The position numbers and the translations under genes were made by a program. This document shows positions 58,324-62,765 of a DNA stretch of 64,000 nt, one piece after another. The notes beneath the pieces were generated by a model. It worked only from the letters and a program-made list of their open reading frames with translations, did not search any database and was not told the DNA's origin. The DNA is from Pseudoxanthomonas sp. NC8 (GTDB lineage Bacteria; Pseudomonadota; Gammaproteobacteria; Xanthomonadales; Xanthomonadaceae). The stretch's first letter is position 1. The number at the start of each line of letters is the position of its first letter. The stretch is from assembly GCA_025232375.1 (NCBI GenBank), contig CP060419.1, forward strand, positions 433,001 to 497,000, given 5' to 3'.

Positions 58324-59105
58324 ATGGCCGTCAAGATCGACAAGAAAATCAAGGGTTACGCCGTGGTCACCGCCGAGGAGAAGGCGCGCGAAGCAGCGCC
58401 GCCGGTGGTCGCTGTAACGGTCGATCGCGCCGCCGCCCAGGCCGAGGCGCCCAAGGACAACATCATCCAGATGCACGAGCGCATCGAGCGCCCGGAAGTC
58501 CTGATCGGCAGCACCTACAAGATCAAGTCGCCGATGGTCGAGCACGCCATGTACGTGACCATCAACGACATCGTCCTCAACGCCGGCACCGAGCACGAGC
58601 TGCGCCGCCCGTTCGAGGTGTTCATCAACTCAAGTCGATGGACCACTTCCAGTGGATCGTCGGCCTGACCCGGATCATGTCGGCCGTGTTCCGCAAGGGC
58701 GGCGACGTGACCTTCCTTGGTGGAAGAGATGAAGGCCGTGTTCGACCCGCGCGGCGGCTACTTCAAGTCCGGCGGCGTCTACATGCCCTCGCTGGTGGCC
58801 GAGATCGGCGCGGTGGTCGAGGAGCACATGAAGTCGATCGGCCTGATCCACGACCCGGAGATGAGCGCCCACACCAAGGCCCTGATCGCCGAGAAGCGCA
58901 AGCAGTTCGAAGACCGCTCAAAAAAACAGTGACCTGACCGCAGCGCCCGTCGCCGTCGGCACCAGGGGAAGACATCGCCGTCACCGGCGACGGCACCAGC
59001 TTCCCGCCCAGCGCCACCATGTGCCACAAGTGCAGCACCAAGGCGCTGGTGATCATGGATGGGTGCGCGACTTGCTTGAATTGCGGGTATAGCAAGTGCG
59101 GGTGA
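58324..59105 (+). CDS. nrdJb: NrdJb: TSCPD/zinc-finger part of class II ribonucleotide reductase
   Basis: This ~258-residue protein corresponds to the C-terminal part of NrdJ. It has AVKIDKKIKGYAVVTAEEKA and the TSCPD domain (STYKIKSPMVEHAMYVTIND; HFQWIVGLTRIMSAVFRKGG; FLVEEMKAVFDPRGGYFKSG). The final Cys-rich tail MCHKCSTKALVIMDG then CATCLNCGYSKCG gives the redox/zinc end. The frame jumps near 58632, 58719 (TTCCTTGGTGG for TTCCTGGTGG) and at the A-run 58921-58927; without the last correction the protein would stop at 58932. P. aeruginosa has the same NrdJa/NrdJb split (family knowledge). Confidence 0.85.
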
Positions 59106-59132
59106 GACTTCACGGCTAAGTATGAAGAAATT

Positions 59133-59158
59133 GGGTCAGGTTCTGGTGAGCCTGACCC
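59133..59158 (+). terminator. Hairpin with T-rich tail after nrdJb; also an element of the GGGGTCAGGTT repeat family
   Basis: GGGTCAGG, a 10-base loop and CCTGACCC form a perfect 8-bp stem, followed directly by TTTTCTTTTC. This fits an intrinsic terminator for nrdJb. The arms also match the GGGTCAGGTT...CCTGACCC arms of the palindromes further along the island, so it may be a member of that repeat family. It sits just upstream of the nuclease gene's ribosome site. Confidence 0.55.
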
Positions 59159-59179
59159 TTTTCTTTTCTGGGAGGTTCA

Positions 59180-60295
59180 ATGTCTAGAGTCGTAGCCGCT
59201 CTCGATAAAATTCCAGGCGCATTGGAAAAAACTGGCTTCATTCTTGAGCACGAGATCGCGGAGGCCTTCAAGAAGAGGGGCTGGTCAACAATCAACGGAC
59301 GCTACTACGCGGATGACGTCGATGGACGGGCGAGGGAGTTGGATCTCGTTGCCTACAGGACTGATAAATCAGCAGACATTGAAGTTGTCACTGGGGTACT
59401 GGTTAGCTGCAAGAAAGACGCCGAACACACGTGGGCTTTCCTAAGCAAAGAAAAGCCTCGGAGCGACCCAAATTTTGACTGGGATCCGGTCCATTATTGG
59501 ACGGATGTCGAGCCCTTGAAAACATATCTTGCGAATGAGAACTGGAAGTCCGACTACGTCACGGCCGGTGGTTCTACATACGATGAGGATATTCGAGCGG
59601 CGCGCGACATATTTGCATTTCAGCTCATATCTTCACAAACAGTTTCGCCCAAGAACGATAAGCCAATATTTGACTCGATATCGTCGCTTCTGAAGGCATT
59701 GGACCATGAGATGGAAGTTCTTCCATCTAGGGCAAAGAAGCGGAAGAGGGTTTACTTTTTCTCCCTGTTGTCTGTTGTGGACGCCCCCTTAGTGGATGTC
59801 GACTACTCCAAGGGTGCCGCCATAGCTCGCGAGGTCAAGAAGCTCACTCACTTTGCGCGATATATGGTTAAGAAACGTGATCTGTCTGCTCTCATACACT
59901 TCGTACGAAGTGATGCAACGGATGATTTCATTCGGTCGATGTCCGACTTGGCTCAAGTAAATTTGCAGTTCATGGAGGCGCGGGTGGATGCCTCATATCG
60001 TGCTATCAGGACAAATCCGGCAGTTCGCGGATACTTTGCCGAAAGGTTGAAGCATCGCCTGGTCTGGCGCATGAATAGCGCTTTGCGAACGACGCCAGCA
60101 ACTAAGGTTGAAGAACTAACTCTGTCTTATAGGGTGGAGGACGATCTGCTGGTCGTCGGCGTCGACGTCTTTGACGACGATCAGTTGAAGCGGATGAACT
60201 CTGATGCCGAGTTGGTTGACTACACCGAGAAGGCTTTGTTCGAGATCGCACGTTACAAGGGTAAATTTGTCTTTGAGCTAGATGTGCCATTCTGA
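59180..60295 (+). CDS. Predicted PD-(D/E)XK nuclease-like protein (accessory island)
   Basis: This intact 371-residue protein starts at ATG 59180 behind GGGAGG. Residues ~15-85 look like a restriction-endonuclease-fold core: EHEIAEAFKKRGWSTINGRY gives the helix-1 Glu, ARELDLVAYRTD the Asp, and VTGVLVSCKKDAEHTWAFL the E/S-x-K-type Cys-Lys-Lys strand. The rest is a helical/beta region with no recognised domain (YFFSLLSVVDAPLVDVDY; RTNPAVRGYFAERLKHRLVW). GC and codon use are markedly lower and more mixed than in the neighbours (ATA, TTT, AGG codons common). Activity and partners are not known; a defence role is inference. Confidence 0.6.
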   Translation: MSRVVAALDKIPGALEKTGFILEHEIAEAFKKRGWSTINGRYYADDVDGRARELDLVAYRTDKSADIEVVTGVLVSCKKDAEHTWAFLSKEKPRSDPNFDWDPVHYWTDVEPLKTYLANENWKSDYVTAGGSTYDEDIRAARDIFAFQLISSQTVSPKNDKPIFDSISSLLKALDHEMEVLPSRAKKRKRVYFFSLLSVVDAPLVDVDYSKGAAIAREVKKLTHFARYMVKKRDLSALIHFVRSDATDDFIRSMSDLAQVNLQFMEARVDASYRAIRTNPAVRGYFAERLKHRLVWRMNSALRTTPATKVEELTLSYRVEDDLLVVGVDVFDDDQLKRMNSDAELVDYTEKALFEIARYKGKFVFELDVPF

Positions 60296-60302
60296 GGATA
60301 GC

Positions 60303-60360
60303 GGGGTCAGGTTAACTTCCCAGAGAATGGCGGGGGCATAAGAAAACTCAACCTGACCCC
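60303..60360. repeat. 58-bp palindromic element, copy 1 (GGGGTCAGGTT arms)
   Basis: Perfect 11-bp terminal inverted repeats GGGGTCAGGTT and AACCTGACCCC bound an internal segment that includes AGAGAATGGCGGGGGCATAA. It begins 7 bp after the nuclease stop. A near-identical copy lies at 61452-61515 on the other side of the next gene. The palindrome could form a long hairpin. Confidence 0.8.
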
Positions 60361-60409
60361 ATTCTTGCTCGCTGAGTGGCTTCCGGGAACTGCGAAGAGG
60401 GGCTGTTTC

Positions 60410-61417
60410 ATGGATGTCGATGTTCCCGGCCTCGAGCTTGGTACAGCACAGGCCAAGGAGGAGATCCACTTCTCTGGTGGCCTTCGAGGCGCGCGCACCG
60501 ATCAAGGCTGGGTGCTCTTCCCTGTCTCTGACGATCCCGAAGCGGATGCAGTTGTTTTCAAGAGCTCAGACGCGCACTTTGCTTTTGCAACGAAGGAATG
60601 CGGGGCCCGTTACTTGGGCGCATGCATCACCTACAGATCAGGGCCGAATTCTCCTCCAATGGACGCTTGGGAGTTCGGCGCAAGAGACCCCGCGAACGGA
60701 TTAGGTGCAGCGGACTCTTGGAGCGCGATTTGTCGCCAGGCCCACCGAGCCGGGGACATGCGTTACGCCGAGAAGGCCTCGTTCGTTGCCGCAAACCTGC
60801 GGGGCGCAGGCCTAAAACTCCGGGATGTTTCCAATGGATATCACGAGCAATTGCGTTGGGCCTTAGCTGACAAGACCCCGCCCGGGCGATGGTTCTCGAA
60901 CGCAGCGCTTCAAAGCGTCTACGCGAATTTTCACGCCCTTGCCTCGGAGCTCTTCTCAGCCCGCGACCACCTGGCCGCTGTCGTTGGTATGCATGTTGGA
61001 GCACCCGAGCGCATCAATGGGCTTTCCCGCCTCGAAGACTGGATATCTGCTGAGACTCGGCAAAATAGTGCTCAAGAGCCCATGGTTAGGCTCATCTTGG
61101 ACGCACTAGGTAGCGAGACGGCGCCTGGATGGCTCCGAAGGCTGGGCGATGTTCGCAATGAGATGCTGCATCGAGTACCAATGAGCGCCAATAGATCGGT
61201 GGCGAGTCTGGTTCTTGAGGCGAGACTTACGACGATGGGTGACGTCACCACTATCCGAATGGGAAAGCCACCGGGAGATTCCACTTCTTCTTTTGGGCAT
61301 ATGCAGGATCCTCTCATCGAATTTGGCTGGCTTAGCGGCAGCCTGGAGCTGCTCTGCAGGTCGATGTGGAAGTTCGCTAAGTATTCTCCCGAACTGCCGA
61401 TCCTTACGGTTCGCTAG
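60410..61417 (+). CDS. Hypothetical protein with HEPN-like RNxxxH motif (accessory island)
   Basis: This intact 335-residue protein starts at ATG 60410 behind GAAGAGGGG (60394-60402); a TTG at 60365 inside the spacer is less likely. The N-terminal ~120 residues are beta-rich (GWVLFPVSDDPEADAVVFKS; RYLGACITYRSG). The C-terminal ~170 are helical, with YANFHALASELFSARDHLAA and, late, RRLGDVRNEMLHRVPM. R-N-E-M-L-H fits the Rx4-6H motif of HEPN ribonuclease-type domains. It lies between two copies of the same palindromic element. Toxin, antiviral or regulatory RNase roles are only inferences. Confidence 0.55.
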   Translation: MDVDVPGLELGTAQAKEEIHFSGGLRGARTDQGWVLFPVSDDPEADAVVFKSSDAHFAFATKECGARYLGACITYRSGPNSPPMDAWEFGARDPANGLGAADSWSAICRQAHRAGDMRYAEKASFVAANLRGAGLKLRDVSNGYHEQLRWALADKTPPGRWFSNAALQSVYANFHALASELFSARDHLAAVVGMHVGAPERINGLSRLEDWISAETRQNSAQEPMVRLILDALGSETAPGWLRRLGDVRNEMLHRVPMSANRSVASLVLEARLTTMGDVTTIRMGKPPGDSTSSFGHMQDPLIEFGWLSGSLELLCRSMWKFAKYSPELPILTVR

Positions 61418-61451
61418 CTGACGCGCAGCGGAGGCTAGGGTCAGAGTGGAT

Positions 61452-61515
61452 AACGGGGTCAGTTTCACTTCCAAGAGAATGGCGGGGGCATAAGAAAGCT
61501 CAACCCGACCCCGTT
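61452..61515. repeat. 64-bp palindromic element, copy 2
   Basis: The arms AACGGGGTCAGTTT and AACCCGACCCCGTT pair at 12 of 14 positions. The interior shares AGAGAATGGCGGGGGCATAA with copy 1. It begins 35 bp after the HEPN-like gene's stop. The two copies are in the same orientation and flank that gene. Confidence 0.8.
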
Positions 61516-61671
61516 CTGTTACCGTCCTGCTACGGGGCGAATTGATCTCCGCCTGCATTGCCAGAACCGTTACCTCCGCCGCGGCGCGACCGTCGGTGCC
61601 CGCACCGCTGCAAATGCCCCCGTGGAGCCGTGCATGGCCCAGTCGCCCGCAGCCCGAACCGCCGGTTCGGT

Positions 61672-61690
61672 AACGGGGTCAGGTTCATTT
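61672..61690 (+). repeat. Half copy of the repeat family
   Basis: AACGGGGTCAGGTTCATTT is one arm and the inner edge of the palindrome family, without a matching right arm nearby. It lies 37 bp upstream of the SH3-like protein gene. Confidence 0.7.
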
Positions 61691-61727
61691 CTTTTTCGCG
61701 GCTCGGCTTAGTCCAGGTGCCAGCTCC

Positions 61728-62102
61728 ATGTTGAAGATCGCCACGCTCGCAGCAGTTCTTGTCGCCGCTGCCACTGCTTCATCGCGACCGGTTCCCGTCA
61801 TGGTTGGCGGCGAGCCAGAACTCGACGCCTGCACCTCGCTGGCGACGATCACAGGCAAGGATCCAACGGCGCTACGCTCCGGTCCGAGCGGCGCTTCTCA
61901 AGAAATAATGAAGGTGCCTGTGGGCGGGTTCGTCTACCTGTGCAGCGTGTCACCGGATGGCCGGTGGTCGGGTGTGGTTCTATCCTGGGACGACGATCTT
62001 GATTGTGGCGTGTCGTCCCCTGTGCCGGTTGCGCGCCCATATTCCGGTCCTTGCATCCATGGCTGGGTCCTTTCAAGCGCACTCGAGCCATTCGCTGGCT
62101 AG
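61728..62102 (+). CDS. Secreted SH3-like small protein of the integron-cassette type
   Basis: This intact 124-residue protein has a signal peptide (LKIATLAAVLVAAATASS). A mature domain follows with GGEPELDACTSLATITG, the bacterial-SH3-like region ALRSGPSGASQEIMKVPVGG, then FVYLCSVSPDGRWSGVVLS. The closing part is GVSSPVPVARPYSGPCIHGW. Its three or four Cys suggest disulfides. I recall very similar secreted proteins among gene cassettes of xanthomonad integrons; that is memory, not a search. No integrase or attC site was seen here. Confidence 0.6.
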   Translation: MLKIATLAAVLVAAATASSRPVPVMVGGEPELDACTSLATITGKDPTALRSGPSGASQEIMKVPVGGFVYLCSVSPDGRWSGVVLSWDDDLDCGVSSPVPVARPYSGPCIHGWVLSSALEPFAG

Positions 62103-62110
62103 GGCCCGAG

Positions 62111-62156
62111 AACGGGGTCAGGTTCACTTGAGCCGAGAACGAGGTCGGGTTTACTT
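62111..62156 (+). repeat. Two direct half copies of the repeat family
   Basis: AACGGGGTCAGGTTCACTT at 62111-62129 is followed by the diverged AACGAGGTCGGGTTTACTT at 62138-62156, in the same direction. They start 8 bp after the SH3-like gene's stop. Confidence 0.7.
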
Positions 62157-62270
62157 CGCAGGGGGAGTCGGCGATACAGGAGAAGGGGCCCAGAAGATCA
62201 GGCGCCCGTTGCGCGGTATCGTTGGCTTGGATCCCGGTTCTCGGCACTGCCCACTATTTGCGAGGTCTTC

Positions 62271-62717
62271 ATGGCGATCATCATTCGTCCCATTGCATCT
62301 GCCGACCGCGAAGAATGGGCGGTCCTCTACTCCGGTTACGCGGATTTCTACAAGGCGATCCAGACGCCCGAGATGCGCGACCGCGTCTGGTCCCTGGCTG
62401 GAGGACGGCGCACACGAACTGCAAGGATTCGTGGCCGTGAACGAGGCGGGCCAGCTCGTCGGCCTGGCGCACTACCGGCCCTTCTCGCGCCCGCTCTCGG
62501 CCACGGTGGCCGGATTATGGACGACCTGTTCGTGAGCCCGGCCGCACGCGGGCAGGAGGTGGGCAAGCAACTGATCGCCGCCATCGCCGAGGTAGGGCGC
62601 GAGAAGAACTGGTCGTGCATCCGCTGGCTGACGGCCGAGGACAACTACCGCGCCCGCAGTTCGTACGACAAGATTTCCACGCGAACCAATTTCCTGACCT
62701 ACGACCTCAAGCTCTAG
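62271..62717 (+). CDS. GNAT family N-acetyltransferase
   Basis: This ~147-residue acetyltransferase starts at ATG 62271. It has IIIRPIASADREEWAVLYSG, YADFYKAIQTPEMRDRVWSW, then (in the corrected frame) LQGFVAVNEAGQLVGLAHYR. The acetyl-CoA loop is MDDLFVSPAARGQEVGKQLI, with the Q/R-x-x-G-x-G/K pattern, and the end is AEDNYRARSSYDKISTRTNF. The frame jumps near 62393 (TCCCTGGCTGG) and back near 62515. GC is higher than in the nuclease and HEPN genes. The substrate is unknown. Confidence 0.8.
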   Translation: MAIIIRPIASADREEWAVLYSGYADFYKAIQTPEMRDRVWSLAGGRRTRTARIRGRERGGPARRPGALPALLAPALGHGGRIMDDLFVSPAARGQEVGKQLIAAIAEVGREKNWSCIRWLTAEDNYRARSSYDKISTRTNFLTYDLKL

Positions 62718-62746
62718 GTCCCTGCGTCGGCGGTAGCGGTCCGGCT

Positions 62747-62765
62747 AACGGGGTCAGGTTCACTT
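62747..62765 (+). repeat. Half copy of the repeat family, right edge of island
   Basis: AACGGGGTCAGGTTCACTT lies 29 bp after the GNAT stop, the last copy before core-like GC-rich sequence resumes. It is identical over 19 bases to the copy at 62111. Confidence 0.75.

Follow-up and report, generated by a model that had tools for sequence, protein, structure and literature searches.

How might a restriction-endonuclease-like protein find DNA to cut when its gene stands alone? The question is raised by a gene near the right-hand end of the 64,000-nt stretch of Pseudoxanthomonas sp. NC8 DNA that was analysed (the window), which a preliminary description, made from the letters, took to encode a stand-alone 371-residue protein with an N-terminal restriction-endonuclease-like core. 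The best explanation reached here, held at about even probability, is a single-gene mobile defence nuclease that would dock on SSB-binding proteins through a mimic of the SSB tail.

Gene and insertion site

The gene is intact, lies directly behind a break in similarity to other genomes of the genus, and has repeat hairpins on both sides:

59103–59105, + strand: stop codon of the upstream gene (58324–59105), where similarity to genus relatives breaks off on comparison
59132–59160, no strand: hairpin formed by the GGGTCAGG repeat, with a T-rich run behind it (-24.4 kcal/mol)
59170–59175, + strand: ribosome-binding site GGGAGG as read from the sequence, 4 nt before the ATG
59180–60295, + strand: coding sequence of a PD-(D/E)XK-type nuclease with a KH-like domain and an SSB-like C-terminal tail, 371 aa, intact from ATG to TGA
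60296–60365, no strand: 70-nt hairpin formed by the repeat (GGGGTCAGGTT ... AACCTGACCCC), immediately behind the stop codon (-25.4 kcal/mol)

The stand-alone character of the protein is borne out for the adjacent genes, because family searches of both neighbours found nothing: the downstream ORF (60365–61417) has no match in Pfam, NCBIfam or PADLOC at E values up to 5; of the upstream gene, which is frameshifted, a stretch of 71 aa was searched against Pfam, also without a match. The statement that no methylase, helicase or specificity subunit is adjacent likewise holds for the immediate neighbours, among which the cognate methylase that marks a type II restriction-modification system was not found. 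The downstream ORF (+ strand, 350 aa) is itself bounded by the same repeat hairpins as the nuclease gene, and it contains the string RNEMLH, which fits the pattern Rx4–6H that we take to be the HEPN RNase motif; the fit could be due to chance.

The upstream gene, which from its sequence we presume to encode an nrdJ-type ribonucleotide reductase subunit, is 782 nt long and frameshifted in the window, and 780 nt long and open at a related locus (L080). A piece of it is present in 15 of the 17 genomes of the genus (own included). Among 15 matches from the 14 relatives similarity ends at 59103–59110 in 14 and at 59180 in one, and in four relatives read over 7–19 kb it ends at 59103–59106, that is, at the stop codon; beyond the break there are only scattered patches, from ~7.4 kb on in three of these four, and one 29-nt repeat match. 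At the matching site one relative (G006, locus L081) has genes for a KAP-family NTPase and a PDDEXK_4 protein, and another (G012) has genes without defence character. Because relatives hold other genes there, the place behind the upstream gene looks like a candidate site for accessory genes in this genus, some of them of defence type. The GC content of the nuclease gene (50.0%) is lower than in any of the 579 overlapping, equally long windows upstream (median 71.1%) and, with its position directly behind the similarity break, this makes the gene look horizontally acquired.

The two hairpins that bracket the nuclease gene (59132–59160 and 60296–60365) are both formed by the GGGGTCAGGTT repeat, and the second has a 90% identical copy at 61448–61517. 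An integron cassette was considered and rejected because the flanking repeats resemble REP hairpins. The repeat consensus AACGGGGTCAGGTTCACTT, noted at window positions 59129–62765, has 42 sites in the 3.54-Mb genome with three or fewer mismatches (a reversed-pattern control gave 0), of which 39 fall in four clusters (~410–421, 493–501, 1656–1671 and 2333–2335 kb) and 32 share one orientation; in one cluster a Y1 transposase gene (1661756–1662082) is flanked by inverted copies. These clusters are possibly REP/RAYT arrays that mark gene modules. The upstream gene and the SSB gene of this genome (L057) are both broken by frameshifts or stops and the nuclease gene is unaffected; completeness of the genome is given as 57%, and the breaks are probably assembly indels.

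Family, active site and predicted fold

Relatives of the protein are few and scattered. A single-protein search found them in 2 of 99 other genomes (3 of 100 with its own) and a plasmid search found five records, in Priestia, Leptospira and Enterobacter, the same five being returned with the distant member L014 as query; the plasmid search with a short cousin (L041) gave no relative, phage records held none of the window protein or of L016, and a single-protein scan of the contigs of named genomes gave 0 matches. A search with a five-row alignment yielded 13 loci in named genomes and two in viral contigs, to which later scans added more. Matches were found in 14 of 5426 complete Escherichia coli genomes and, at E ≤ 0.001, in 13 of 395 genomes of the window's taxonomic family; six of these (own included) have a full-length gene, and the other seven have no more than a short cousin, a fragment or a deletion allele. 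A sample of the phylum gave 3 of 398 genomes (its own, a deletion allele and a short cousin) and a sample of the class 5 of 369 (its own, one other full-length form and three that are partial or short). The distribution of the family is thus patchy. The named relatives suggest that the host belongs to the Lysobacter/Luteimonas family. Some copies have decayed: one in Stenotrophomonas has an internal deletion (L017, L040), a Leptospira copy (L005) is riddled with stops, and L012 is truncated, as would be expected of a dispensable accessory gene. The Stenotrophomonas allele (L017, 6983–7405; L040), which came from two collections, lacks approximately residues 80–178, deleted directly after SCKK, and has an early stop.

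For counting, 21 distinct intact long forms (window included) and seven shorter cousins were used. This count leaves out the truncated L012, the deletion allele L017, L040/L042, the Leptospira copy with stops (L005), the fragments L018, L019 and L094, and L095 and L100, which the motif filter missed; duplicates were removed (L002/L084 equal L007; L085, L008; L088, L003; L059, L021; L061, L013; L062, L020; L001/L096, the window; L099, L041), and some N-terminal starts were set by hand. Pairwise identity among the 21 long forms is 23–76% with a median of 30%, although they are not independent, L009 and L087 being 76% identical and the enterobacterial L014, L021 and L038 67–74%.

The features of the protein discussed below are:

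59231–59950, + strand: nuclease lobe, residues 18–257, with an insertion at ~91–160 (by VIA-align; repeated by the second model)
59246–59248, + strand: E23, a helix Glu, in 21/21 long and 6/7 short forms
59342–59344, + strand: D55, a catalytic-type Asp in the second strand, in 28/28 (21 long and 7 short)
59405–59413, + strand: S76-C77-K78, with Ser at the (D/E) position and the Lys of (D/E)XK, K78 in 28/28
59708–59710, + strand: E177 in helix 161–184, a candidate relocated carboxylate whose role is proposed below
60002–60292, + strand: KH-like (RbfA-like) domain, residues 275–371, without a GXXG loop (by its match to RbfA 2dyj_B)
60275–60292, + strand: C-terminal tail ELDVPF-COOH, SSB-tip-like, P370 in 20/21 and F371 in 21/21 long forms

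The Glu, Asp and Lys from which a PD-(D/E)XK site had been proposed lie in the segments named, as E23 (ILEHEIAEAF), D55 (ARELD) and K78 (VLVSCK); the distance from Asp to Lys is 23 residues, close to the ~25 claimed, and that from Glu to Asp is 32 rather than ~45. On alignment all three are kept in every long form, and because they are invariant in 21 of 21 proteins at 23–76% identity the pattern does not arise by chance; the remaining invariant residues are R52, E53, S76, C77, K79, F145, Q148 and E177. Both conserved residues of the bipartite motif, Asp and Lys, are present in all 28 proteins, and the acid two residues before the Lys is absent from all 21 long forms. Position 76 is Ser in these 21 and Glu in all seven shorter cousins, so S76 occupies the place of the acid, and with Ser there the site of the long forms is a variant, E-D-SxK. 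The short branch (L041, L089–L093 and L098) consists of proteins of 205–299 aa, of which L098 (205 aa) may itself be cut short, with a canonical E-C-K and neither the KH-like domain nor the PF tail.

A relocated acid offers one possible solution. E177, in the helix after the core strands, is Glu in 21/21 long and 0/7 short forms, with a weak alignment in that region, and it is proposed as a hypothesis that its carboxylate replaces the one missing at position 76. Passages of PMC551604 describe such relocation in Cfr10I, NgoMIV and others ('PD-XXK-E') and note that accepted superfamily members also lack the acid two residues before the Lys; part of PMC4652773 gives BsaWI as a further reference for a site of this kind. 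The window protein is like the Cfr10I/NgoMIV type in its kept Lys, missing strand acid and candidate acid in the following helix, but no sequence relation to that type was detected, E177 is a candidate only, and no methylase was found adjacent. The long and short branches form a natural pair for studying carboxylate movement in a PD-(D/E)XK site.

The window protein has no Pfam or NCBIfam model over cut-off and no PADLOC match, and its score with archaeal Hjc (PF01870) is below threshold (12.3 bits with a cut-off of 21.1, E 0.17); the short cousin L041 gave a sub-threshold Hjc match in Pfam and nothing else. A scan of 13 members gave scattered matches to eight Pfam families at E ≤ 0.5, each in no more than one or two members, the best being PF10098 (DUF2336; E 0.00087 in 1 of 13), and DUF4263 is not among the eight. 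Of 18 members, one matched a phrogs profile of unknown function (E 0.0027), four NCBIfam models were matched by one member each, including a weak match to YraN (E 0.0027), and none matched PADLOC 2.0 (E ≤ 0.01). Sequence searches of the PDB gave nothing meaningful.

Two AlphaFold2 models were made, the first from a 13-row alignment of the window protein (pLDDT 89.4, pTM 0.85) and the second with the distant member L014 (29% identical) as first row (pLDDT 88.3, pTM 0.84); the second is not fully independent of the first because the alignment rows are essentially the same, and the truncated L012 is a row in both and in the member profile scans. Foldseek against the PDB gave only low-confidence rows, with no match at E ≤ 0.001, and against viral structures a single row at that level, herpesvirus UL24 (E 7.2e-4, TM 0.15). 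Foldseek candidates were compared by VIA-align, so that folds missed by Foldseek cannot appear, and the tool warns that a Z below 8 may reflect a common arrangement. The lobe of the first model (residues 18–260) best matches McrC (6hz4_M; Z 8.2 over 134 residues, 3.7 A), followed by AF1548 (1y88; Z 7.6), Upx (Z 7.5), two Hjc-type resolvases (1ob8 and 2eo0, both with Z 6.9) and an XisH-like excision protein of the fdxN element (Z 6.5). That of the second matches McrC (Z 8.5 over 134 residues, 3.5 A), Hjc-type proteins (Z 6.8–6.9) and SduA (Z 5.6 over 147 residues). McrC, AF1548 and Hjc are thus matched by both models, XisH by the first and SduA by the second; the limits of the lobe insertion (~91–160) were derived from DSSP elements. 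With several separate PD-(D/E)XK families recurring at moderate Z (8.2–8.5 at best) and the motif in the expected order, the lobe is predicted to be PD-(D/E)XK-like, with the core order alpha-beta-beta-beta-alpha-beta. The superposition proposed earlier as a check on the N-terminal core accordingly has PD-(D/E)XK proteins as its best matches, and the invariant residues and predicted fold together support such a core; of the two findings that would have spoken against it, poor conservation of the three residues and a different fold, neither was made.

The region described as some 280 C-terminal residues of unknown nature is predicted to be in part the rest of the nuclease lobe (to ~257), and in part a separate KH-like domain of ~97 residues with an SSB-like end. 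Residues 275–371 of the first model match RbfA (2dyj_B; Z 8.5 over 85 residues, 2.9 A) and other KH-like proteins, the KH domains of ribosomal S3 and Der among them, and the C-terminal part of the second matches RbfA with Z 7.8. The first model has the alpha-beta-beta-alpha-alpha-beta order of KH type II (H280–301, E313–318, E323–328, H333–341, H343–357 and E362–367). The GXXG loop between two helices is absent, the turn reading N340-S-D-A343 in the window protein; RbfA presumably also deviates at this position.

Compared with PD-(D/E)XK nucleases such as McrC, Hjc, YraN-like proteins and XisH, the window protein has the same predicted fold and the same order of helix Glu, strand Asp and Lys, but differs in its Ser for the acid, its large insertion and its own C-terminal domain. 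Shedu (SduA), which we take to be defined by DUF4263, is similar as a single-gene nuclease candidate and aligns to the second model (Z 5.6), but the Pfam scans gave no DUF4263 match and the window family has a different extra domain and the SSB-like tail.

Mobile and defence context of the relatives

Nine of 15 long-form loci whose flanks were read are in or beside mobile elements. Two are on plasmids (L004 and L006); one adjoins Rep_trans and an integrase (L007); one has an integrase on one side and an AIPR/Mrr_cat protein matching AbiU on the other (L009); one is flanked by a tmRNA, an integrase and an RT-Toprim gene (L014); two are on viral contigs, adjoining Baseplate_J (L020) or with Tmn upstream and a terminase downstream (L021); and one is in an E. 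coli element at tRNA-Asn with an integrase and the relaxase MobQ (L038). The ninth (L013) was counted as mobile because its contig, from equal length and the same protein, is probably one that is also in IMG/VR. Defence genes (AbiU, RT-Toprim or Tmn) therefore adjoin three loci; PADLOC was searched with ten chosen neighbours in all. Elsewhere, L015 lies 135 bp behind tRNA-Ser, and no mobile or defence marker was seen at L008, L010 or L016, where library searches covered one neighbour of L010, one of L016 and, for L008, none. Neither an integrase nor a phage gene was seen adjoining the window copy.

A restriction-modification partner and a conserved partner gene were both considered for the family and rejected. 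In the loci scanned no restriction-modification partner is adjacent, a type III methyltransferase gene lies two genes away at L011 only, and no gene recurs among the neighbours looked at.

The C-terminal tail and possible functions

All 21 long forms finish exactly on F371, and 20 of them have P370 before it; the exception is the cyanobacterial L013, which ends LSF. Other ends include DDDIPF, DDIPF, LDVPF, VDVPF, PDLPF and VYLPF. Fourteen of the 21, the window protein among them, have a strict D-[IVL]-P-F, and an Asp or Glu stands directly before the last three residues ([IVLFP]PF) in 17 of the 20 that end in PF, all but L004, L020 and L086. The rest of the C-terminal domain is poorly conserved: no column between 242 and 369 reaches 95% identity, and the best are L257 and G361 (90%) and N340 (86%). 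Among 388 ORFs of at least 100 aa called in the window and at 23 loci, a PF end occurs in 16, each of them a family member. The calling was greedy for the longest ORF, some of the 388 frames are surely no genes, and the family member L013 is one of the 372 that end otherwise.

The tip of bacterial SSB has the same motif and, according to part of PMC7145534, binds at least 17 partner proteins in E. coli. Likeness to SSB-Ct consists in an acidic residue followed by [IVL]-P-F at the very C-terminus; the differences are that this tail is borne by a nuclease, with no OB fold, no long linker and usually one or two acids rather than a run, ELDVPF of the window protein being less acidic than DDDIPF. 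The best host SSB ends D-[IV]-P-F in 10 of 12 genomes searched, two of the ten (G034 and G491) having the same SSB place and probably being one genome. The broken SSB gene of the window genome has FADDDIPF before a stop in one frame. The L014 host has a second SSB that continues beyond DDDIPF and a third SSB-like frame without this motif; in Myxacorys, the host of L013, the best SSB match ends EEDF and a weaker SSB-like match DDIPF; and in a metagenome-assembled genome the nuclease ends VDVPF and the SSB EDDVPF. At L011 and L013 there is a hint that the nuclease tail matches the host SSB tail, in too few cases to count.

These features suggest how a lone nuclease might be directed. The horizontally moving single-gene enzyme would most likely act against phage DNA or that of competing mobile elements, with a lobe whose variant site (E23, D55 and S76-x-K78) would be completed by the carboxylate of E177; the KH-like ~97 residues would probably bind single-stranded nucleic acid; and the tail, D-[IVL]-P-F-COOH, would dock the enzyme on proteins, of the host or of the invader, that interact with SSB. 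Such proteins gather at single-stranded DNA and replication forks and would so bring the enzyme to replicating DNA. As docking would target the enzyme to forks and single-stranded DNA, neither a methylase nor a specificity subunit would be needed. That the protein cleaves DNA is probable, a defence role is somewhat favoured, and for the tail as a functional SSB-tip mimic the chances seem evenly divided. If true, the proposal would explain how such a nuclease finds DNA to cut, and a defence protein that carries an SSB tail would represent a novel means of targeting or monitoring replication.

Links between defence and SSB are known from other systems: passages of PMC13381803, PMC10732053 and PMC10568477 report phage SSB as a trigger of AbpAB, Hna, Retron-Eco8, Hachiman and Nhi. 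These likewise tie defence to SSB biology (parts of PMC10732053 and PMC13381803) but respond to phage SSB, whereas in the present family the mimic of the SSB tail would be part of the defence protein. A PD-(D/E)XK fold and a relocated acid are of kinds already known; neither this family nor an SSB-tip-like tail on a defence nuclease was found among the literature matches listed, and the combination of a PD-(D/E)XK-like lobe, a KH-like domain and an SSB-like tail in an unnamed mobile family is new among those matches, as far as searched.

A bolder version of the docking proposal, rated somewhat short of even, is that the family evolved its SSB-tip mimic either as a tether to forks or as bait, the tip being offered to SSB-binding proteins of phages whose docking would switch the enzyme on. 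In the same branch the acid would have changed its place, leaving the strand (as E of ExK) for the helix (as E177), and from this shift it would follow that tail, KH-like domain and altered site arose together in a guarded self-targeting enzyme.

An unlikely but serious alternative keeps the same nuclease and likely defence role and makes the Pro-Phe end structural, packing on the KH-like domain or capping the last strand, with no SSB link. The tail follows the last predicted strand (362–367) at once, without the long linker of SSB, the end is LSF in one member, and in three no acid precedes the motif. P370 and F371 could be buried in the models, confidence being low only at the very end (pLDDT 41 at residue 371 and a mean of 84 for 361–370 in the first model; a mean of 70 over the last six residues in the second). 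However, residues with a structural task would rarely stay fixed at the exact C-terminus amid drifting surroundings, and the Phe is last in all 21 long forms and an acid precedes the motif in 17 of 20 within a domain otherwise barely conserved.

It is improbable that the protein serves its carrier element, for example by resolving Holliday junctions or cutting DNA in recombination after recruitment by SSB partners. Such a role would suit the resemblance of the lobe to Hjc-type resolvases of archaea (Z 6.9 with both 1ob8 and 2eo0; profile match sub-threshold at E 0.17) and the copies in viral contigs, integrative elements and plasmids, but the carriers differ (a Baseplate_J contig, a MobQ relaxase element, a Rep_trans/integrase element and plasmids), defence genes adjoin three of the loci, and the window copy has no integrase or phage gene seen beside it.

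Loss of cleavage through the change from Glu to Ser at position 76, leaving a protein that only binds or blocks DNA, is distinctly improbable: S76 stands in place of the canonical acid in 21/21, but E23, D55 and K78, which a dead site would not need, are invariant in the same 21, and passages of PMC551604 document relocated acids for Cfr10I, NgoMIV and others. Very improbable is an RNA-directed nuclease, in which the RbfA/KH-like domain would bind RNA or the ribosome and the lobe would cut RNA in abortive infection, as its case from RbfA as best C-terminal match, the KH domains of ribosomal S3 and Der being further matches, is opposed by the absent GXXG loop, by a tail that points to DNA metabolism, and by the fact that PD-(D/E)XK lobes mostly act on DNA.
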